Shown: piece after piece, positions 3,901-53,648 of the stretch | Layout of the letters: every line of letters starts with the position of its first letter | Numbering within the stretch: position 1 is the first letter of the stretch | Source: Bacteroidales bacterium | GTDB taxonomy: Bacteria; Bacteroidota; Bacteroidia; Bacteroidales; NBLH01 | NCBI GenBank assembly: GCA_016937695.1 | Contig: JAFGWC010000008.1 | Location: 1 to 64,000 of the forward strand | Direction: 5' to 3' | Length of the DNA stretch: 64,000 nucleotides | Made by a program: the position numbers and the translations under genes | The notes under the pieces: generated by a model | Told to the model about the DNA's origin: nothing | Database searches by the model: none | The model's input: the letters and a program-made list of their open reading frames with translations, nothing else

Positions 3901-3946
3901 AAAAAAGAGTCGCTTTCAGGAAAATTGCTGAAAGCGACTCTTTTTT
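3901..3946 (+). terminator. Intrinsic terminator after the lipoprotein gene
   Basis: Perfect 19-bp inverted repeat: AAAAAAGAGTCGCTTTCAG pairs with CTGAAAGCGACTCTTTTTT across an 8-base loop. The GC-rich core and flanking A and T runs make it a bidirectional Rho-independent terminator, ending transcription of the gene that stops at 3863. Confidence 0.9.
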
Positions 3947-4115
3947 ATTAAAATTTATCAAAATGTCGTAACTTAATTGATAGATAAAAAAAAAATAAAA
4001 ATTATAAGTTAAGTTTTAAAAATTCTAATTATATTTGACGCAAATAATATTATAATATACCATATGTATTGTTTGTAGTTCTAAATTCTTGTTCGTTTTA
4101 CAAGATTTACATAAT

Positions 4116-4706
4116 ATGTTTAATTTAGTAAAATATGTAATTGTATTTTTTATCTTGATTTTTTTTGAAATAAATATTATTTCTCAAAAAAATGGGAATG
4201 TATATTTCAAAATTCAGATTGCTGCTTCAAAAGTTCCATTATCTGAAAATAAATTAAATGAAATTTGCAAAGCAAATGATATTTTAAATGTTGAATTTGA
4301 AAACGAATGGTATAAATATTCTATACATAAAAAGTTTTTTTTATACGAAGATGCAGCAGAATATAAAAATTCATTAAATGTAAAAGGAGCTTTTATTATT
4401 GCTTATAAAAACGAGCAAAAAGTTGATATTAAGGAAGTTGTGGATTTAGGAAATCTAAAACCAGAACTTGTAAATAAAATAGTATATCGTTTAGAATTAG
4501 CTGTTTCAGTAAAAAAAGCAGATGCAAAAACAATGGAAATGATAAAAAGTGGAGGAATGCCAATAATTACAGAAAAACAAAATGCTTGGTATTCATATAC
4601 AATTGGAGATTTCATTTCTGAGGAAGAAGCAATTAAATTTAAAGAAGACAAACAATTATTTGATGCAAAAGTTGTAAAATATAAAAACGGGAAACCATTA
4701 AAATAA
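4116..4706 (+). CDS. Secreted protein with two SPOR-like domains
   Basis: Probable periplasmic peptidoglycan-binding protein, 196 residues from the ATG at 4116; an in-frame TTG at 4089 would place polar residues before the signal peptide. Residues 1-22 form a hydrophobic export signal. Two SPOR-like units follow, about 28-100 (FKIQIAASKVPL, WYKYSIHKKF, GAFIIAYKN) and 118-196 (YRLELAVSVKKA, WYSYTIGDF, AKVVKYKNGK). SPOR domains of this type bind denuded glycan strands at division or remodelling sites. The second unit has lost the QIAAS signature and may not bind. The next gene carries a closely similar single SPOR domain, suggesting duplication. Confidence 0.75.
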   Translation: MFNLVKYVIVFFILIFFEINIISQKNGNVYFKIQIAASKVPLSENKLNEICKANDILNVEFENEWYKYSIHKKFFLYEDAAEYKNSLNVKGAFIIAYKNEQKVDIKEVVDLGNLKPELVNKIVYRLELAVSVKKADAKTMEMIKSGGMPIITEKQNAWYSYTIGDFISEEEAIKFKEDKQLFDAKVVKYKNGKPLK

Positions 4707-5975: not shown

Positions 5976-6755
5976 TTATTTCCCTGTAAAATTAGCTTTT
6001 CTTTTCTCTAAAAAAGCCGTAGTTCCTTCTTTAAAATCTTCAGTTCCAAAACAATTTCCAAATTCTTCAATTTCTGATTCAAAACCATTTAACTCTTTGT
6101 TATACAAAGCATTAACTGTTTTAATTATTTGTTTTATTGCATAAGGCGATTTAGAAGTAATTTTTAGAAGTAATTTTTTAACAGTAGGAAGAAGTTCTTC
6201 AAGTGTAGTTACAGAATTAACTAAACCAAGATTTTTAGCTTCATTTGCATCAATCATATCAGCAGTCATTAATAATTCAAAAGCTTTACCTTTTCCAATT
6301 AGTTGAGCCATTCTTTGAGTTCCACCATAACCAGGAATAAGTCCTAAATTAACTTCCGGTTGGCTGAATTTTGCATTTTCAGATGCAATTCTCATATGGC
6401 AAGCCATGGCTAACTCGCAACCACCACCTAATGCAAAGCCGTTTACAGCAGCTATTACAGGCTTTCCGCAATTTTCAATACTATTAAAAACATTATGTCC
6501 GTGTGCAGAAAGCTCGGTTCCTTTAGTTACGTTAAAATCAGAAAACTCTTTAATGTCAGCACCAGCAATAAAAGCTTTTTCGCCACTTCCCGTAATTATT
6601 ATTCCTTTAACATTATTGTTTTTTTTTGCTTCAGAAATAGCAACTCCAACTTCTCGTATTGTATCTTTAGTTAATGCATTTAACTGTTTGGGTCTGTTTA
6701 TTGTGATTGTAAATATATTTTCATCCAAACTAGTAAATATGTTTTGATATTCCAT
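5976..6755 (-). CDS. Enoyl-CoA hydratase/isomerase (crotonase family)
   Basis: Cytoplasmic crotonase-fold enzyme of 259 residues, full family length. It probably hydrates trans-2-enoyl-CoA, for example crotonyl-CoA in beta-oxidation or butyrate-type fermentation. The oxyanion-hole segments are present (AFIAGADIKEF near 61-71; ALGGGCELAMACH near 108-120), as are both catalytic glutamates, Glu114 and Glu134 (in QPEVNLGLIPGYGGTQ). Both Glu being present favours hydratase over isomerase activity. It has no fatty-acid gene neighbours and is transcribed convergently to the SPOR gene. Chain length and pathway cannot be fixed from the sequence. Confidence 0.88.
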   Translation of the reverse strand: MEYQNIFTSLDENIFTITINRPKQLNALTKDTIREVGVAISEAKKNNNVKGIIITGSGEKAFIAGADIKEFSDFNVTKGTELSAHGHNVFNSIENCGKPVIAAVNGFALGGGCELAMACHMRIASENAKFSQPEVNLGLIPGYGGTQRMAQLIGKGKAFELLMTADMIDANEAKNLGLVNSVTTLEELLPTVKKLLLKITSKSPYAIKQIIKTVNALYNKELNGFESEIEEFGNCFGTEDFKEGTTAFLEKRKANFTGK

Positions 6756-45221: not shown

Positions 45222-45276
45222 TAAAAAAATCAAATTCCAAATAAAGTTAATATTTATTGTTTGGAATTTGATTTTG
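45222..45276. terminator. Terminator after cmk (bidirectional)
   Basis: AATCAAATTCCAAA (45228-45241) pairs with TTTGGAATTTGATT (45260-45273), 14 bp, with A7 before and a short T run after. It may also end the minus-strand repeat-protein gene. Confidence 0.8.
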
Positions 45277-45297: not shown

Positions 45298-45549
45298 TTA
45301 AGGAATTCCAGGAAATGAGTCAACAAATTGAACTTTAATATCTCCAAAAGAATCAACAATTTGTACTTTAAAATCGCCAAAAGAGTCAACAATTTCCCAT
45401 TTTCCGCAAGAATCGGCAAATGAGCTTACTTTTTCTACTTTTAAATCAGGAAAAGAATCTACAACTTCAATTTTAATATCGGCAAAAGAGTCAACAATTT
45501 CAACTTTTCCGTAAAGTTTAATTCCATTAAATTCACATCCGCTAAGCAT
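45298..45549 (-). CDS. Short VDSF-repeat protein resembling the 7_1 septoil-knot family
   Basis: 83 residues built from an 11-residue repeat, VDSFxDxKVxx, about six times, with one degenerate unit (VSSFADSCGKWEI, 13 residues). No signal peptide; one internal Cys. From memory this matches small bacterial proteins annotated as 7(1) septoil knot domain proteins, predicted to form a deeply knotted all-beta fold: same length, FNGIKLYGK start, CGKW in the middle and SFPG end. Family assignment needs a profile search. It follows the REC-kinase by 73 bases on the same strand, so it may be last in that unit. Function unknown. Confidence 0.65.
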   Translation of the reverse strand: MLSGCEFNGIKLYGKVEIVDSFADIKIEVVDSFPDLKVEKVSSFADSCGKWEIVDSFGDFKVQIVDSFGDIKVQFVDSFPGIP

Positions 45550-45622: not shown

Positions 45623-46741
45623 TTAAACAGGAATTTCAACTGTGAATTTTGAGCCAATGTCAACTTTGCTTTCAATTTTTACATTTCCTTTGTTTAGGTC
45701 AATAATTTTTTTCATAATTGATAAACCTAATCCGCTGCCGGAAATGTTTTTGGTTTTTTCGTTTTTAATTCGTTTAAAATCTTCAAATAAACTTGATTTT
45801 TCTTCTTCAGTCATTCCAATTCCGCTGTCTTCAATAATAAATATTACTTTTTCATTTTCGTTTTTCAGATAGAATTTTATTTGTCCGTCTTTTTTATTGT
45901 ATTTTACAGCATTTGAAAGCAAATTATTAAAAATTATTTCAATTTCGCCCGAATCGGCATTAATTTTTAGTTTTTTCGGAAATTCTTTAATTATTTTCAG
46001 ATTTTTTTGAATAGCCATTGGTTCAATTGAATCTAAACACATGTTTGCAATTTCAACAATATCAATGTTTTTAAGCTCTCGATTTTTTTTACCCGATTCA
46101 ATTTTTGTTAAATCAAGCATATCCATAATCAGATTTCTCATTCCTTTTAATCTGTCGATTGAGCGTTCAATCATATTTTCGTAAGCCGAAATGTCTGTTC
46201 CTGCTTGTTTATCTTGCATAATTCGCAGATATCCTTCAACAGCATTTATTGGCGATTTTAATTCGTGCGATAAAACCGATAAAAATTTAAACCGAATGTT
46301 TTTGGCTTCGAGTTTCATTTTTTGTGTCATTCGTTTTAAAAATAAATGCTTTGTAATGCTTTCTATTGCTGATTTTAAATCTTGCTGCGAGAAAGGTTTC
46401 GGGATAAAATTAAAAGCGCCGTTATTTGTAGCTTTTATGGCCAAATCCATTGATGCATAAGAAGTTATCATCATTACAGCACAATCAGTAAGTTTGTTGT
46501 TAATATATTCTAAAACTTCAATTCCTTCAATTCCTGGAAGTTTATTGTCAAGCAGAATTATGTCAATATTTTGATTATCAATAATTTGAATTGCTTGTTC
46601 TCCGGTTTCGGCATCAATTAAATCATATTCGAAATCGTGCTCGTAAAAAGGAAAACTTACAGTAAAATTTCGCAGCACTCGCCTGATTCCGGTTCTTATG
46701 CCTTCTTCGTCATCAACTATTAGTATTGTTAATTTTTCCAT
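45623..46741 (-). CDS. Receiver-histidine kinase fusion (REC-HisKA-HATPase)
   Basis: Soluble signalling protein of 372 residues. N-terminal receiver with phospho-acceptor Asp65 (IILLDNKLPG) and Lys in FIPKPFS; then HisKA with His159 (VLSHELKSPINA), and HATPase (NNLLSNAVKYN, DSGIGM, GSGLGLSIMK). No membrane segment, so input comes by phosphotransfer to the receiver. Its position downstream of the hydrogenase-kinase and a response regulator suggests it is a later step in the same relay. The insert SFPFYEHDFEYDLIDAE in the receiver is longer than usual. Confidence 0.88.
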   Translation of the reverse strand: MEKLTILIVDDEEGIRTGIRRVLRNFTVSFPFYEHDFEYDLIDAETGEQAIQIIDNQNIDIILLDNKLPGIEGIEVLEYINNKLTDCAVMMITSYASMDLAIKATNNGAFNFIPKPFSQQDLKSAIESITKHLFLKRMTQKMKLEAKNIRFKFLSVLSHELKSPINAVEGYLRIMQDKQAGTDISAYENMIERSIDRLKGMRNLIMDMLDLTKIESGKKNRELKNIDIVEIANMCLDSIEPMAIQKNLKIIKEFPKKLKINADSGEIEIIFNNLLSNAVKYNKKDGQIKFYLKNENEKVIFIIEDSGIGMTEEEKSSLFEDFKRIKNEKTKNISGSGLGLSIMKKIIDLNKGNVKIESKVDIGSKFTVEIPV

Positions 46742-47354: not shown

Positions 47355-49340
47355 CTATTCTGTTTTAGGCAATTTTATTATAAAAGTAGTTCCGGTTTGT
47401 CCTTTTGTATTATCGATATTAGATTTTACATTTATTTTTCCTTTGTGCATTTTTACAATTCCGTAAACAAGAGGTAAGCCTAGTCCTGTGCCTTTTCCGG
47501 CTGATTTTGTTGTAAAAAAAGGAGTAAATATTTTTTCGATATTTTCTTCACAAATTCCGGTTCCTGTATCAGAAATAATAATTTCAATTTCATTTTCCGA
47601 CTCGTTTAATTCAAGTTTTAAAATTCCGCCATCAGGCATTGCTTCAATTGCATTTTTTTCAATATTTGTTAAAACCTGCATCATTTGAGTAGAATCTATT
47701 GCAATAATTGGTTTTGTTATATTGTTAATTAATTGAATATCAATATTATCGGGCTTAATTATCGAATTAAAACTACTTTCGGCAAATTCAACAATATTGC
47801 ATTTTGAAAGTTGGAGCTTATTTTTTCTGGCAAAATTTAGTAATCCGCCAACAATATTTTTACACCTTTCTGCTTGTTCGTTTATAATTTTTATGTCGTG
47901 ATAAATTTCATCTTTTTTATCAATTTCATCTTTTAAAATGCTGCTATACAGAGTTATAATTCCTAAAGGATTATTTAATTCGTGAGCAATTCCTGCCGAA
48001 ACTTGTCCCATGCTTGCAAGTTTTTCCGATTGTTTAAGAGCTTTTCTTGCATTTTCGAGTTTATGATTCGATAAATTAATTTCTTCAATTGAGTTATGCA
48101 ATTTTTCAATAGTAAAAGGCAAACACATTTCCGATTCAGCTAAACCTTCGGCCACAGCCACAGCGTGTTCAAAGCATGTTTCGTAACCACAAGCTCCGCA
48201 ATTAAGCATATCTTTTTGTTCATATTTGCCCATTGATTTTAAAATATCATCAATTTCTTGTTTTTCAGGTTCCGGAATTCTTCTGTCAATAGCTGTAAAA
48301 TTTCTCGAAAAATCCAATTTTGAAAATTCATTGAAATATTTATTAAATAGTTCAATATCAATATTTTGCAATTTTATTTCAGCATATTCGCTAACTTTCA
48401 TTCTTTTCGAAAAAAGCTTTCCTTTTTCTGTCATTCCTGCACCTAAAATACAACCGTCGCAACATAAAAGTTCAATGTGCTGATTACTTATTTGGCCTTT
48501 CTCAAATTCGTTTATAGCTTCTTTAAATTTAGTTTTTCCTTCGGCCGAAACTACTTTTCCTTTTCCCAAACCTTCTTTTCTATCAATACTTTGTAACAAT
48601 CCGTGATTAATAGGAAAAATTGCACCTTTTGCAGAAACAGGTTCGTCAAAATCTATAGGTTTAACAGAATTTGCATTGATGTTTTTCTTTTTAAATATTG
48701 TTCTTAATTCCGAAAAAGTTAAAACTTCTTCAAAACTGTCTGATTCTGATTTTTTAGCAACACAAGGTCCAATAAAAACAAGTTTTGAGTTTTCGCCGTA
48801 TTTCTTTTTAACAACTTTCGCCATTGCCATTGCAGGCGAATCAATTTTTGCAAAAGAATCGATTAAATCAGGATGATAATGAGAAATATAATGAACAATT
48901 GCCGGACAATCTGAAGTAATTGTTGGTTTTGACTCAATATTATCAAATATTTTTTTGTATTCATTTGCAACTAAATCAGCACCAAATGCAACTTCTGTAA
49001 CATAATCAAAGCCAAGTTTTTTTATCATTCCAACAAGAAATCTATAATCTTCAATTTCTATAAACTCAGCCGGAAAACTTGGCGCAATACATGCAATAGT
49101 TTGATAATCAGAGCTTAATAATTCTTCAACTAGTTCTGTTGATTGAAAAAATACTTTTGCGCCCTGACTGCATACTTTAACACAATTTCCGCAAGCAATA
49201 CACCTTTCCTGAATTACTTCTGCTTGTCCGTTTATTATTTTTATTGCTTTTACCGGACATTCTCTCACGCAAGTAAAACAAACTCTGCATTTGTTTATTA
49301 ATGTGTAAACCAATGGATTATGTTTTGAAAAACGAGACAT
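47355..49340 (-). CDS. Sensory [FeFe]-hydrogenase fused to a histidine kinase
   Basis: 661 residues, soluble. Two [4Fe-4S] motifs (Cys18/21/24/28 and Cys47/50/53/57) lead into an [FeFe]-hydrogenase-like domain with TSDCP (Cys145), GPCVAKKSE (Cys193) and Cys293/Cys297 in LLCCDGCILGAG. Catalytic enzymes have TSCCP; here the proton-relay Cys is Asp144. A further Fe-S domain follows (Cys381/384/389/406), then HisKA with His453 (GIAHELNNPLG) and HATPase (IEKNAIEAMPDGG, GTGLGLPLVYG). This fits group C, histidine-kinase-linked sensory hydrogenases. It lies just downstream of hydA and probably reports H2 or redox state to the adjacent regulators. Confidence 0.9.
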   Translation of the reverse strand: MSRFSKHNPLVYTLINKCRVCFTCVRECPVKAIKIINGQAEVIQERCIACGNCVKVCSQGAKVFFQSTELVEELLSSDYQTIACIAPSFPAEFIEIEDYRFLVGMIKKLGFDYVTEVAFGADLVANEYKKIFDNIESKPTITSDCPAIVHYISHYHPDLIDSFAKIDSPAMAMAKVVKKKYGENSKLVFIGPCVAKKSESDSFEEVLTFSELRTIFKKKNINANSVKPIDFDEPVSAKGAIFPINHGLLQSIDRKEGLGKGKVVSAEGKTKFKEAINEFEKGQISNQHIELLCCDGCILGAGMTEKGKLFSKRMKVSEYAEIKLQNIDIELFNKYFNEFSKLDFSRNFTAIDRRIPEPEKQEIDDILKSMGKYEQKDMLNCGACGYETCFEHAVAVAEGLAESEMCLPFTIEKLHNSIEEINLSNHKLENARKALKQSEKLASMGQVSAGIAHELNNPLGIITLYSSILKDEIDKKDEIYHDIKIINEQAERCKNIVGGLLNFARKNKLQLSKCNIVEFAESSFNSIIKPDNIDIQLINNITKPIIAIDSTQMMQVLTNIEKNAIEAMPDGGILKLELNESENEIEIIISDTGTGICEENIEKIFTPFFTTKSAGKGTGLGLPLVYGIVKMHKGKINVKSNIDNTKGQTGTTFIIKLPKTE

Positions 49341-49392
49341 GTTTTAAAGAATGAATTATGAAATATGAATTATTTTATTTGGTTTTTTTTGT

Positions 49393-49400
49393 CAAAATTA
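49393..49400 (-). promoter_or_regulatory. Putative -7 element (TAATTTTG) before the sensory hydrogenase
   Basis: Exact TAnnTTTG match on the minus strand, 52 bases before the start at 49340, in the 143-base gap after hydA. It could give the sensor its own transcript. Confidence 0.4.
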
Positions 49401-49483
49401 GCATCAAAATATTTGTGAATTTAGTATTATTAAATGTTATAAAATATGTTTTATTTCATATTACATACTTCATATTTCACACT

Positions 49484-51202
49484 TCACAAAACTACTTTCC
49501 TAGCCTGATAATGTGTATGTAATAGTTCATGCGATTTTTCGCTTAAAGGCTCTTTTAAAAATTTATCGTAAATTGTTATTACGTCAGGATTTTTATGCGA
49601 AACCTTAATATTCTCATTATCATCTATTTGGTATAAAGATTTCATTCTTGTTATAATCGCATTTTCATCCATATTTATCGGTTGACCGCCACCACCAACA
49701 CAACCGCCCGGGCACGCCATTATTTCAATAAAATGAATATCTTTTCTTCCTGCACTAATTTCATCGAGCAAGAGTTTAGCATTTGCCAATCCGTTTACTA
49801 CTGCAACACCAATATTTAAATCACCAATTTTAATTTGAGTTTCTTTTCGGCCTTCTAAACCTCTTACAGCATCAATTTGAAATTCGACTAATTCTTTACC
49901 TGTAATTTTAAAATATGCTGTTCGTAAAGCAGCTTCGGCAACTCCACCGCTTGCGCCGAATATTTTACCTGCTGATGTTCTTGAACCAAGAGGCGAATCT
50001 GCAATTTCAGATTTTAAAGTATGCATGTTTATTCCGAATAGTTTTATAAACTTTACAAATTCGCGAGTAGTTAAAACAGCGTCAACATCAGAATTGCCTT
50101 TGTTTGTCATTTCTTTTCTTTGACCTTCAAACTTTTTAGCAGTACAAGGCATAATTGAAACAGAATAAATATCATCAGGATTAATATTTTCTTTTTCGGC
50201 AAAATAGCTTTTTACAACAGCTCCCATCATTTGCTGTGGCGATTTGCATGTAGAAATATTAGGCAAAAAATCAGTAGCAAATTCTTCTGCGTATTTAATC
50301 CATGCAGGACAACAACTTGTAATAAAAGGTAATGCCTTATTTGTTGATATTCTGTCAATTAGCTCAGCAGATTCTTCCATAATAGTTAAATCGGCGGCAA
50401 AAGTAGTATCAAAAACAAAATCAAAACCTATTTTTCGTAAAGCAGCGTTCATAATTCCATTAATATCTTTTCCGGCTTCCATTCCCAGCTCTTCAGCAAT
50501 TGAAACAGAAATTGCAGGTGCATATTGAACAACAACTTTTTTATTAGGATTTTTTAAAGCCTCTTCTATTTCAGAAAAATGATTTTTTTCGGTTAAAGCA
50601 CCTGTAGGACAGACCATTATACATTGTCCGCAATTAACACAGCTTGAAACGTTTAAGCCTTTATCAAAAACAGTACTGACAGTTGAATTGCTGCCTCTTT
50701 TTGTAAAATCGATACATGCAACGCCCATAACTTCTTCACAAACTCTAACGCATCTTCCGCAAAGAATACATTTTTCAGGATCTCGCATAATGCTTGAACT
50801 AGAACGATCAATTGGTAATTTGTTCTTTTTACCGTTAATTCTTCTTTCATGAACGCAAAGCTCTTCAGATAAGTTCTGTAACTCGCAATTACCATTTCTT
50901 ACGCAGTACAAACAGTCATCTGGATGATTTGAAAGTAATAATTCAACAATTGTTTTTCTGGCTTCGGTAACTCTTGGCGAATGTGTCAAAATGTCCATGC
51001 CTTCTTCAACAGGAGATGAACAAGAAGTAATTAGCTTATTGGTTTTTGTATTTTCAACAAGGCACATTCTGCAAGCTCCGGTTGGAAACATATTTTTTAT
51101 ATGACAAAGAGTTGGCACTTTGATTCCATTTCTGTTAAGAACTTCAAGAACTGTTTCTCCTTTATTAGCCTCAACTTTTTTATTATTTATATCGATAATC
51201 AT
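49484..51202 (-). CDS. hydA: [FeFe]-hydrogenase catalytic subunit HydA
   Basis: H2-forming/oxidising subunit, 572 residues. Domains: [2Fe-2S] (Cys33/44/47/61), His-ligated [4Fe-4S] (His93, Cys97/100/106), two [4Fe-4S] (Cys145/148/151/155 and Cys188/191/194/198), and the H-cluster domain with TSCCPAWIK (Cys297/298), MPCTAKKFE (Cys353) and EIMACPGGCVGGGGQP (Cys497/501). Every ligand is present. With HydB and HydC upstream this is the trimeric NAD-dependent, probably electron-bifurcating type (HndD/TmHydA-like). Maturation needs HydE, HydF and HydG; only hydF is in the window. Confidence 0.95.
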   Translation of the reverse strand: MIIDINNKKVEANKGETVLEVLNRNGIKVPTLCHIKNMFPTGACRMCLVENTKTNKLITSCSSPVEEGMDILTHSPRVTEARKTIVELLLSNHPDDCLYCVRNGNCELQNLSEELCVHERRINGKKNKLPIDRSSSSIMRDPEKCILCGRCVRVCEEVMGVACIDFTKRGSNSTVSTVFDKGLNVSSCVNCGQCIMVCPTGALTEKNHFSEIEEALKNPNKKVVVQYAPAISVSIAEELGMEAGKDINGIMNAALRKIGFDFVFDTTFAADLTIMEESAELIDRISTNKALPFITSCCPAWIKYAEEFATDFLPNISTCKSPQQMMGAVVKSYFAEKENINPDDIYSVSIMPCTAKKFEGQRKEMTNKGNSDVDAVLTTREFVKFIKLFGINMHTLKSEIADSPLGSRTSAGKIFGASGGVAEAALRTAYFKITGKELVEFQIDAVRGLEGRKETQIKIGDLNIGVAVVNGLANAKLLLDEISAGRKDIHFIEIMACPGGCVGGGGQPINMDENAIITRMKSLYQIDDNENIKVSHKNPDVITIYDKFLKEPLSEKSHELLHTHYQARKVVL

Positions 51203-51239
51203 GAATCTTAATTTTAAAAATGATTTAATATCCTGATAT

Positions 51240-53183
51240 TTAGCTTATTACAATTGCATCGAATTTACAAACTTCTTCACAAGTTCCACACGAAATGCAT
51301 TTATCTTCAACAATAAAATGAGGTGATTTTTTTGTGCCGATAATTGCGTTTGTAGGACATTTTTTAGCACAAACAGTACATCCTGTACATTTATCAACAT
51401 CTATTGAAAAAGTTCTTAATTCTGTGCAAACACCGGCAGAACAAGTGCGTTCGTATATGTGCTCTTCGTATTCATTTCGGAACCATTTAAGAGTGCTTAA
51501 AACAGGATTTGGCGCAGTTTGTCCTAATCCGCAAAGCGATGTTTCTTTAATAACTCTGGCAAGCTTTTCGAGCTGAGTAACTCCTTTAAATCTTCTAAGA
51601 GCTTCGTGCGAATTTCCGTTTACAGGTTTATGTGTAATATCTTCCAGAATTTCCAGCATTCTTCTCGTTCCTTCTCTGCAAGGAATGCATTTTCCACAAC
51701 TTTCGCGTTGAATAAAATCCATGAAGAATTTTGCAACATCAACCATACAGGTATCTTCATCCATAACAACCAGACCGCCTGAACCCATCATTGCGCCAAC
51801 TTTAATTAAGGAATCATAATCTACCTTAATATCAAGGTTTTGCTCTGTTATACAACCGCCGGAAGGTCCACCAATTTGAACCGATTTGAACTTTTTATTG
51901 TTTGGGATACCACCTGCAATATCAAAAATAATTTGGCGAACAGTAGTTCCCATTGGAATTTCAACAAGTCCTGTAAGTTTTACCTTTCCAGAAAGGGCAA
52001 AAACTTTAGTTCCTTTGCTATTTTCAGTTCCTATAGATTTGTACCAATCAGAACCTTTTTCAATAATAGTTGGAACATTTGCCAAAGTTTCTACATTGTT
52101 TATGATTGTTGGTTTTCCAAATAAACCGCTTAGAGCAGGAAATGGCGGACGTGGTCGCGGCATTCCTCTTTCTCCTTCAATGCTGTGTATTAGTGCTGTT
52201 TCTTCACCACAAACAAAAGCACCTGCGCCCATTTTTACTTTTATTTCAAAATCGACACTGGAATCAAATATGTTTTTTCCTATAAGTCCGTAATTTTCAG
52301 CTTGTTGTATTGCTATTTTTAATCTTTTAATTGCTAAAGGATATTCCGCACGAATATAAACGTATGATTTTGTTGCGCCGATAGAATAGGCCGCAATAGC
52401 CATTCCTTCAATAAGTCTGTGAGGATCGCCTTCAATAACGGCTCTGTCCATAAATGCTCCGGGATCGCCTTCGTCTGCATTGCAAATTAGGTATTTTTGA
52501 CTACATGGAGTATTTAATGCAAATTTCCATTTTTTCCCTGAAAGAAAACCTCCGCCACCTCTTCCTCTTAATCCGCTTTCTTCTATTAAATCGCACATTT
52601 CGGAAGAGCTTTTGCTTTTTATAACTTTTAAATAGCTTTTATATCCGCCTGAAGCGATATATTCTTCTATACTTGTTGGATTTACAATACCACAATTTTT
52701 AAGAACTATTCTTTTTTGAGCTTTGAAAAATGAATGTTCAAAAATATCAGCAATATTTTCCCAATTTTTATTATTTTTTGACGAAAATTGGCCTAAGATT
52801 TCTGTTTTAGGAATATCTAAGTTGAAAATTTCATTTAAAATAAATTCAACTTTATTTTCTGTTACATTTTCGAAAGATATTCGGTTAAAGCCAGGTATTT
52901 GCACGTCCATTAAAGGTTCTGAAGAACATAAGCCAATACAGCCAGTTTCAATAATATCAGCATCAATATTTTTATTTCTGATATAATTTTTAACAGCTTC
53001 AAGAGTTTTATCGGCGCCGGCACCCAAACCACAAGTGCCTGTGCCGATAAAAATGGATGGTTTTTCAATTTTTTCACGATTTATTTTTGAAACAATGTCG
53101 CTAATATCTTGATTATTAGTATCTAAATCCGAATTTAGTATATTTTTAATCAGAAAATCTTTGTAATTTTTAGTATCAGACAT
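51240..53183 (-). CDS. hydB: NAD-dependent hydrogenase flavoprotein subunit HydB
   Basis: NuoF-like diaphorase subunit, 647 residues. N-terminal thioredoxin-like [2Fe-2S] part with three visible Cys (51, 82, 86); then the FMN/NAD-binding region (SGLRGRGGGGFLSGKKW, CNADEGDPGAFMDRA, GAGAFVCGEETALIHSIEG); the [4Fe-4S] site ESCGKCIPCREGTRRM with a later Cys in TSLCGLGQ; and two C-terminal [4Fe-4S] motifs (CTGCTVCAKKC, CISCGTCEEVC). The flavin in this subunit is where NAD(H) and ferredoxin electrons are thought to bifurcate. Starts 3 bases after hydC; 37 bases before hydA. Confidence 0.95.
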   Translation of the reverse strand: MSDTKNYKDFLIKNILNSDLDTNNQDISDIVSKINREKIEKPSIFIGTGTCGLGAGADKTLEAVKNYIRNKNIDADIIETGCIGLCSSEPLMDVQIPGFNRISFENVTENKVEFILNEIFNLDIPKTEILGQFSSKNNKNWENIADIFEHSFFKAQKRIVLKNCGIVNPTSIEEYIASGGYKSYLKVIKSKSSSEMCDLIEESGLRGRGGGGFLSGKKWKFALNTPCSQKYLICNADEGDPGAFMDRAVIEGDPHRLIEGMAIAAYSIGATKSYVYIRAEYPLAIKRLKIAIQQAENYGLIGKNIFDSSVDFEIKVKMGAGAFVCGEETALIHSIEGERGMPRPRPPFPALSGLFGKPTIINNVETLANVPTIIEKGSDWYKSIGTENSKGTKVFALSGKVKLTGLVEIPMGTTVRQIIFDIAGGIPNNKKFKSVQIGGPSGGCITEQNLDIKVDYDSLIKVGAMMGSGGLVVMDEDTCMVDVAKFFMDFIQRESCGKCIPCREGTRRMLEILEDITHKPVNGNSHEALRRFKGVTQLEKLARVIKETSLCGLGQTAPNPVLSTLKWFRNEYEEHIYERTCSAGVCTELRTFSIDVDKCTGCTVCAKKCPTNAIIGTKKSPHFIVEDKCISCGTCEEVCKFDAIVIS

Positions 53184-53186
53184 AAG

Positions 53187-53648
53187 TTAATTGAGATTTT
53201 GTGTTTTTAAATCTGAGATGATTTTTTTTAGCGAATCAACAGTAACTTTTGCGTGAAACTCACCATTTATGCAAATAACCGGAGCTAAACCGCAAGCGCC
53301 AATGCAGGCAACAACTTCAATGCTAAATAATCCATCTCTGGATGTTTCATCGGCTTTAATTTTAAGGCTTTTTTCAAGTTCTTGAAGCACAGAAGAAGAA
53401 CCAAGAACATGACAAGCAGTGCCTCTGCAAATTTGTATATGGTATTTGCCTTTAGGCTGAAATCTAAACTGATTATAGAAAGTTGCAACACCATAAACTT
53501 TGCCGGCAGGAATATTTAAGCATTTACCAACATCTGAAATGATTTTTTCAGATAACCATCCTTCGTTTTCTTGAATTTCTTGTAATACAGGAATTAAATT
53601 ATCCCTGCCGGTATTTTTGTATTTTGATAATATTTCTTCAGTTTTCAT
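53187..53648 (-). CDS. hydC: NAD-dependent hydrogenase small subunit HydC
   Basis: NuoE-like thioredoxin-fold [2Fe-2S] protein, 153 residues. Ligands Cys74/Cys79 (ICRGTACHVLG) and Cys115/Cys119 (VACIGACGLAPV); AGKVYGVATFYNQFRFQPKG is the family signature. First of the hydCBA genes. The 157-base gap before it carries strong inverted repeats that may regulate the operon. Confidence 0.95.
   Translation of the reverse strand: MKTEEILSKYKNTGRDNLIPVLQEIQENEGWLSEKIISDVGKCLNIPAGKVYGVATFYNQFRFQPKGKYHIQICRGTACHVLGSSSVLQELEKSLKIKADETSRDGLFSIEVVACIGACGLAPVICINGEFHAKVTVDSLKKIISDLKTQNLN

Follow-up and report, generated by a model that had tools for sequence, protein, structure and literature searches.

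The protein Q9PR55 (UU089.1) of Ureaplasma was predicted in 2022 to form a 7_1 knot (PMC9278004), which has since been confirmed by crystallography (8IWA; PMC13352647) and is the most complex knot yet seen in a protein. Five entries in the Protein Data Bank (PDB) belong to Q9PR55 (8IWA, 8IWB, 8IWC, 8JRM and 8W68), one of them entitled 'Solution structure of a 7_1 knotted Q9PR55' (8JRM), and as far as the literature searched shows only one 7_1-knot protein has been solved. A probable homologue with 48% identity, the 112-aa protein P73136, was predicted by AlphaFold to form a 5_1 knot (PMC9278004). A preliminary description of the window, the whole 64 kb stretch of DNA analyzed here, had assigned a small repeat protein to this group under the name of septoil knot, and had described its knot as a prediction only and its biological role as not known. 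The first of these two statements needs correction in view of the experimental structure of Q9PR55, and with the second we agree.

The 83-residue repeat protein proposed in that description is encoded exactly at 45298-45549, on the minus strand and with its ATG at 45549. Its translation, hereafter P0001, is MLSGCEFNGIKLYGKVEIVDSFADIKIEVVDSFPDLKVEKVSSFADSCGKWEIVDSFGDFKVQIVDSFGDIKVQFVDSFPGIP, in which the 11-residue VDSFxDxKVxx repeats, the CGKW break and the SFPG end are all present. V-x-S-F turns occur six times, at V19, V30, V41, V54, V65 and V76, and four of the six continue as a full 11-residue unit; turn 3 runs on as SFADSCGKW and turn 6 as SFPG, within a C-terminal SFPGIP. The gene and its parts are:

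45298..45549, minus strand: complete coding sequence (open reading frame and translation) of an 83-aa protein without a signal peptide, almost certainly of the torus-knot family (PDB 8iwa, E 2.3e-10; PHROG 6462, E 1.9e-31)
45535..45537, minus strand: codon of Cys5, the first of a co-varying cysteine pair (co-occurrence of Cys5 and Cys48)
45463..45495, minus strand: unit 1, residues 19-29, VDSFADIKIEV, read from the sequence, with a predicted strand at 25-29
45430..45462, minus strand: unit 2, residues 30-40, VDSFPDLKVEK, read from the sequence, with a predicted strand at 36-40
45412..45429, minus strand: turn of unit 3, residues 41-46, VSSFAD, read from the sequence and leading into the break between the halves
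45397..45408, minus strand: the CGKW break, residues 48-51, with Cys48 and the G49-x-W51 that opens the second half (alignment conservation)
45358..45390, minus strand: unit 4, residues 54-64, VDSFGDFKVQI, read from the sequence, with a predicted strand at 60-65
45325..45357, minus strand: unit 5, residues 65-75, VDSFGDIKVQF, read from the sequence, with a predicted strand at 71-76
45307..45324, minus strand: turn of unit 6 and the SFPG end, residues 76-81, VDSFPG, read from the sequence, with G81 nearly invariant

A degenerate DNA pattern for VD-SF-x-D had four sites without mismatch in the 64 kb, and because all four fall inside this gene the repeat pattern is beyond chance. The gene is present as one copy in the 3.95 Mb assembly. 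When it was compared with its close relatives L001, L002 and L003, dN was 0.039, 0.108 and 0.098 and dS was 1.07, 0.94 and 0.80, respectively; dN is far below dS, and the gene is therefore protein-coding and under purifying selection. Upstream of the ATG the reading frame meets a stop before any other start codon, which leaves P0001 without room for a signal peptide. Lipoprotein anchoring was considered, as MLSGC resembles a lipobox, and was rejected because no hydrophobic stretch lies ahead of it. Between the gene and the convergent cmk gene downstream, a perfect 12-bp inverted repeat (TCAAATTCCAAA / TTTGGAATTTGA) was found at 45230-45271 of the window, and is possibly a bidirectional terminator; it is too A+T-rich for the terminator scan.

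Searches with P0001 led to a single family. The only significant sequence found by phmmer in the PDB was Q9PR55 (E 2.3e-10 for 8iwa, with four further entries), a profile of the family likewise found Q9PR55 alone (E 1.9e-13), and there were no matches above cut-off in Pfam, NCBIfam or PADLOC. On these sequence matches, P0001 almost certainly belongs to the torus-knot family of Q9PR55 and P73136. The membership proposed in the preliminary description thus stands, and the family name does not: 'septoil knot' was absent from Pfam, from NCBIfam and from the protein papers in the literature searched. P0001 is also matched by PHROG 6462, a profile of unknown function (E 1.9e-31, profile positions 23-103 of 103), as are all 62 members aligned (best E 2e-36). 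About 80 distinct homologous open reading frames were found in other genomes. Across 62 aligned sequences G14, V30, G49 and W51 are invariant and G81 nearly so, and P0001 consists of two pseudo-repeated halves, each starting with G-x-V/W (G14 and G49).

An AlphaFold2 model of P0001 built on the 62-sequence alignment is all beta (mean pLDDT 95.3, pTM 0.82) and has six predicted strands, at residues 14-18, 25-29, 36-40, 50-54, 60-65 and 71-76. A Foldseek search of the PDB with this model returned only Q9PR55 structures below E 0.001 (E 3.3e-6, probability 1.0), and a structure search of BFVD gave no match below E 0.001. We consider it very probable that P0001 is knotted. The chain would pass twice round a small ring, with three strand-turn units in each pass, and the two passes, entered at G14 and G49, would be wound round each other, making the open chain a (2,5) or (2,7) torus knot. 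Geometrically, two crossings for each of the three units in a pass would add up to an even number, which is impossible for a knot, and the join between the passes would therefore add or remove one, giving 5_1 or 7_1. The product would be a very small body that is hard to unfold. A single all-beta domain tied as a torus knot is the explanation of P0001 that we prefer overall, with moderate confidence.

Between the two knots we lean slightly to 5_1, to which we give about an even chance, because P73136, with its predicted 5_1 knot, is as long as members that have six units and a leader; this is the commonest form of the family, and the resemblance of P73136 to it is judged from length alone. That P0001 ties a 7_1 knot exactly like that of Q9PR55 is the strongest competing reading, plausible and yet clearly less likely. 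In homologous register the two proteins are 42% identical and share a pattern of two regular units, one broken unit and two regular units, and turns 19/30/41/54/65 of P0001 align with V-x-S-F positions 30/41/51/67/78 of Q9PR55; furthermore, the model of a relative, L042 (pLDDT 85; of class B, described below), fits 8iwa_A at 3.0 A over 68 columns, with a TM score of 0.56 by query and 0.63 by target. Against an identical knot, the P0001 model superposes poorly on Q9PR55 in that same register (rmsd 9.9 A, TM 0.34, 64 columns), Q9PR55 has no sixth (SFPG) unit, and its break spans 16 residues where that of P0001 spans 13. The L042 model also aligns with 8iwa_D, which is identical in protein to 8iwa_A, but at 10.1 A over 64 columns; with these models, the fit to one and the same target is good or bad according to the alignment picked. 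The models suggest that the units are alike but that the second half may be placed differently against the first from member to member, which would fit homologues having different knot types.

An unusual feature of the family is the likeness of its turns. The residue at V+2 is the same between units of one protein in 85% of comparisons, as against 49% for the same unit across proteins, whereas the strand positions show the reverse pattern and are position-specific. All six V+2 residues are identical in 38 of 50 non-redundant proteins (column-shuffle expectation, 0.001). Eleven of these sets consist of a residue other than Ser (four of Ala, four of Tyr and one each of Asn, His and Ile), and the V+2 label has changed at least eight times on the tree. 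Held-out sequences added all-six Asn sets (L184, L186, L195 and L208, where in L208 Trp follows in all six), all-six His sets (L175-L177) and all-six Tyr sets (L205 and L210). A homologue on a Burkholderia stagnalis megaplasmid (L160, about 3925-4250, plus strand) has IAP at one and the same position of each of its six turns; PLSDB lists no gene at this site. Exceptions to the rule of matched turns are the phage copy of Leptospira and some other members, and in sign tests on independent pairs from the tree, confined to supported branches, the coupling of turns did not reach 0.05 because too few branches are supported.

We think it probable that the six V+2 turn residues form a matched set, and their side chains may pack together as such. 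In the simplest mechanism, these side chains would meet, as in the ladders of beta-solenoids, or all six would face one symmetric partner. It is rather unlikely that the turns are alike merely through recent homogenization of the DNA, by repeat conversion or expansion, with no structural coupling. Codon identity between units does slightly exceed expectation (synonymous codons, 0.516 observed vs 0.477 expected), and L071 uses GCT in all six turns; however, most switched sets have mixed codons, such as the six Ala codons of L030 (GCC GCA GCT GCC GCG GCA), and the strand positions have remained unit-specific. Mixed codons and an identity so near expectation mean that such homogenization explains little, L071 excepted.

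The cysteines of the family also vary together. In the discovery set Cys5 and Cys48 are both present in 61 members, Cys48 alone in one (L011) and Cys5 alone in none, while five members have neither (L005, L019, L022, L034 and L098); class B, the divergent L044-L046 and L024 are outside this count. The cysteines of L043, L089 and L096 were read by eye. L005 has lost both cysteines, and its closest relatives keep both. Pairs were again complete or absent in the held-out set, and in the tandem protein L204 domain 1 has neither cysteine and domain 2 has both. Such joint gain and loss is consistent with a disulfide, and Cys5 may be bonded to Cys48 in any setting where the protein encounters an oxidizing compartment. 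A counterpoint is that the clade of the window is leaderless and keeps both cysteines all the same, for which a cytoplasmic disulfide is no ready explanation.

In class B, with seven members in the discovery set, cysteines at 10 and 82, at both ends of the domain, replace Cys5 and Cys48. Its members are L037, L039-L043, L075, L205 (531-869, plus strand) and L210 (624-971, plus strand), and its end motifs are C-x-[VI]-[YF]-G and G-[EQ]-G-C. In the 89-aa model of L042 the end cysteines are residues 16 and 88. A disulfide of class B could bridge the two ends of the domain and close the knot covalently. Other departures concern the number of domains. Three open reading frames of 214-229 aa carry two complete knot domains each in tandem behind one leader:

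L202, 697-1356, minus strand: tandem two-domain open reading frame
L203, 461-1147, plus strand: tandem two-domain open reading frame
L204, 670-1311, minus strand: tandem two-domain open reading frame

All three are candidate composite torus knots. We also observed a natural variant in repeat number, L043 (1495-1704, minus strand), in which the first half is one unit short and there are five strands in all; its knot might be simpler. L135 (7497-7991, plus strand) is exported and combines a Tudor-like N-terminal segment (weak Pfam matches, E about 0.002) with a knot domain behind it, and in two members from the Planctomycetota search, L098 (1105-1746, plus strand) and L157 (the same gene as L022), a transmembrane or long leader segment is followed by a cysteine-free knot domain. 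Class B with covalently closed knots, tandem proteins with composite knots and a matched rosette of six turns, or a symmetric partner for it, may together make up a natural series of torus knots, a proposal that we put forward tentatively and at rather less than an even chance.

The family was surveyed with PHROG 6462 as the query in about 2,000 genomes, the samples being drawn from larger groups and partly overlapping. It was present in 37 of 295 genomes sampled from the order to which the window belongs, 18 of 395 of its class and 11 of 346 of its phylum, as well as in four of the seven genomes of its genus. Further afield, there were 10 positive genomes among 289 from the class of Marinicaulis (Alphaproteobacteria), 18 among 48 from the class of Turneriella, two among 321 from the class of Succinivibrio and three among 199 from the phylum of Mariniblastus; the 14 control genomes had none. 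The family is thus widespread across bacteria, though patchy. In a tree of 45 columns P0001 falls among leaderless proteins of Bacteroidales (support 96/94), and little else is resolved. In most members the domain is preceded by a strong hydrophobic leader (judged by hydropathy, not by a signal-peptide predictor), and the family would mostly be exported. Proteins in the clade of the window start directly with M-[ILV]-x-x-(D)-C, as do the held-out L181, L182, L185, L192 and L193; this clade would have lost, or never had, an export signal, and its protein would stay in the cytoplasm. For the family at large, we consider a role in the envelope somewhat more likely than not.

Relatives also occur in phages, in a fixed setting. 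In Leptospira prophages the gene lies between the gene at the gpW position and baseplate J, with a 4-nt overlap with J, and adjoins Phage_tail_X, DUF6046 and the tape measure gene. These copies are likely the phage members of PHROG 6462:

L159, 3929-4243, plus strand: Leptospira prophage gene of the family, with a signal-peptide-like leader and diverged turns
L161-L169, about 6001-6312, plus strand: Leptospira prophage genes of the family, with the same leader and diverged turns

It is improbable that bacteria domesticated a phage gene, whether of the tail tip or of lysogenic conversion. The argument in its favor is the placement in the Leptospira baseplate operon, found in all nine viral contigs and in a plasmid-borne prophage; nonetheless, the phage copies have a signal-peptide-like leader and diverged turns, 50,697 phage genome records held no relative, five bacterial queries against viral contigs yielded none for four and one for the fifth, and the bacterial copies examined mostly lie beside ordinary cellular genes. 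A role of the phage copy as a PAAR-like spike tip, suggested by its position, was dropped on account of that leader.

Slightly less probable still is a beta-solenoid or beta-ring of the ordinary kind, free of any knot and with rungs of 11 residues. The repeat length and the ladder-like sameness of the turn residues do recall solenoids, and AlphaFold is blind to topological barriers (PMC10672856), but both sequence and fold searches matched entries of the knotted Q9PR55 alone and no solenoid, and knots in homologues have been both predicted (PMC9278004) and found experimentally (8IWA, cited in PMC13352647).

The gene had been described as lying behind hydrogenase signaling genes, and rightly so. 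Directly upstream on the same strand, at a distance of 73 bp, is a response-regulator/histidine kinase gene (45623-46741), and farther upstream on that strand are a response regulator, a histidine kinase with an Fe-hydrogenase domain and HndA/C/D-like genes. From 47355 to 53648 of the window, on the minus strand, we observed HndA/C/D-type Fe-hydrogenase genes followed by a histidine kinase whose sensor is an Fe-hydrogenase large-subunit domain. That this context is informative about function was not borne out: among about 80 other loci, those of congeners among them, not one has hydrogenase genes near the gene. The locus survey found no neighbors conserved across the family; close relatives alone share some, namely peptide deformylase, alpha/beta hydrolase, H+-pyrophosphatase and DUF4293/YjbR. 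For all its position on the same strand 73 bp behind the kinase, P0001 is most improbable as a small accessory of the upstream hydrogenase/two-component operon, given those hydrogenase-free loci, the weak generic kinase matches near the gene in only three Leptospirae loci, and congeners that carry it behind H+-pyrophosphatase and elsewhere. P0001 is most probably not a part of hydrogenase signaling.

A stand-alone module for binding or scaffolding, resistant to unfolding and to proteases and placed in the cell envelope of most of the bacteria that have it, would be the likeliest role of the family, although we consider binding or scaffolding itself doubtful. As far as the literature searched shows, the end-to-end cysteine class, the tandem knots and the concerted turns are unreported. 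The survey as a whole, in which the family is widespread though patchy, mostly exported, and built on cysteine pairs that co-vary and turns that evolve as a set, offers direct and cheap handles on why selection keeps so complex a knot, and on whether torus knots that are composite or covalently closed occur in nature. P0001 itself is an ordinary-looking, leaderless member of the family.

Compared with the described systems, P0001 differs from PHROG 6462 in being chromosomal, leaderless and outside any phage module. The Knotted Solenoid fold (3_1; PMC13123833) is, like P0001, a knotted beta protein built from repeats, but differs in fold and in knot, and the PDB search detected no sequence relation between the two. 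P0001 differs from Q9PR55 in its ordered N-terminal segment, which contains Cys5, in its shorter break with CGKW and in its sixth, SFPG unit. With Q9PR55 it shares 11-residue V-x-S-F-P-D units, a break in mid-chain and a small single domain, predicted for P0001 to be all beta.
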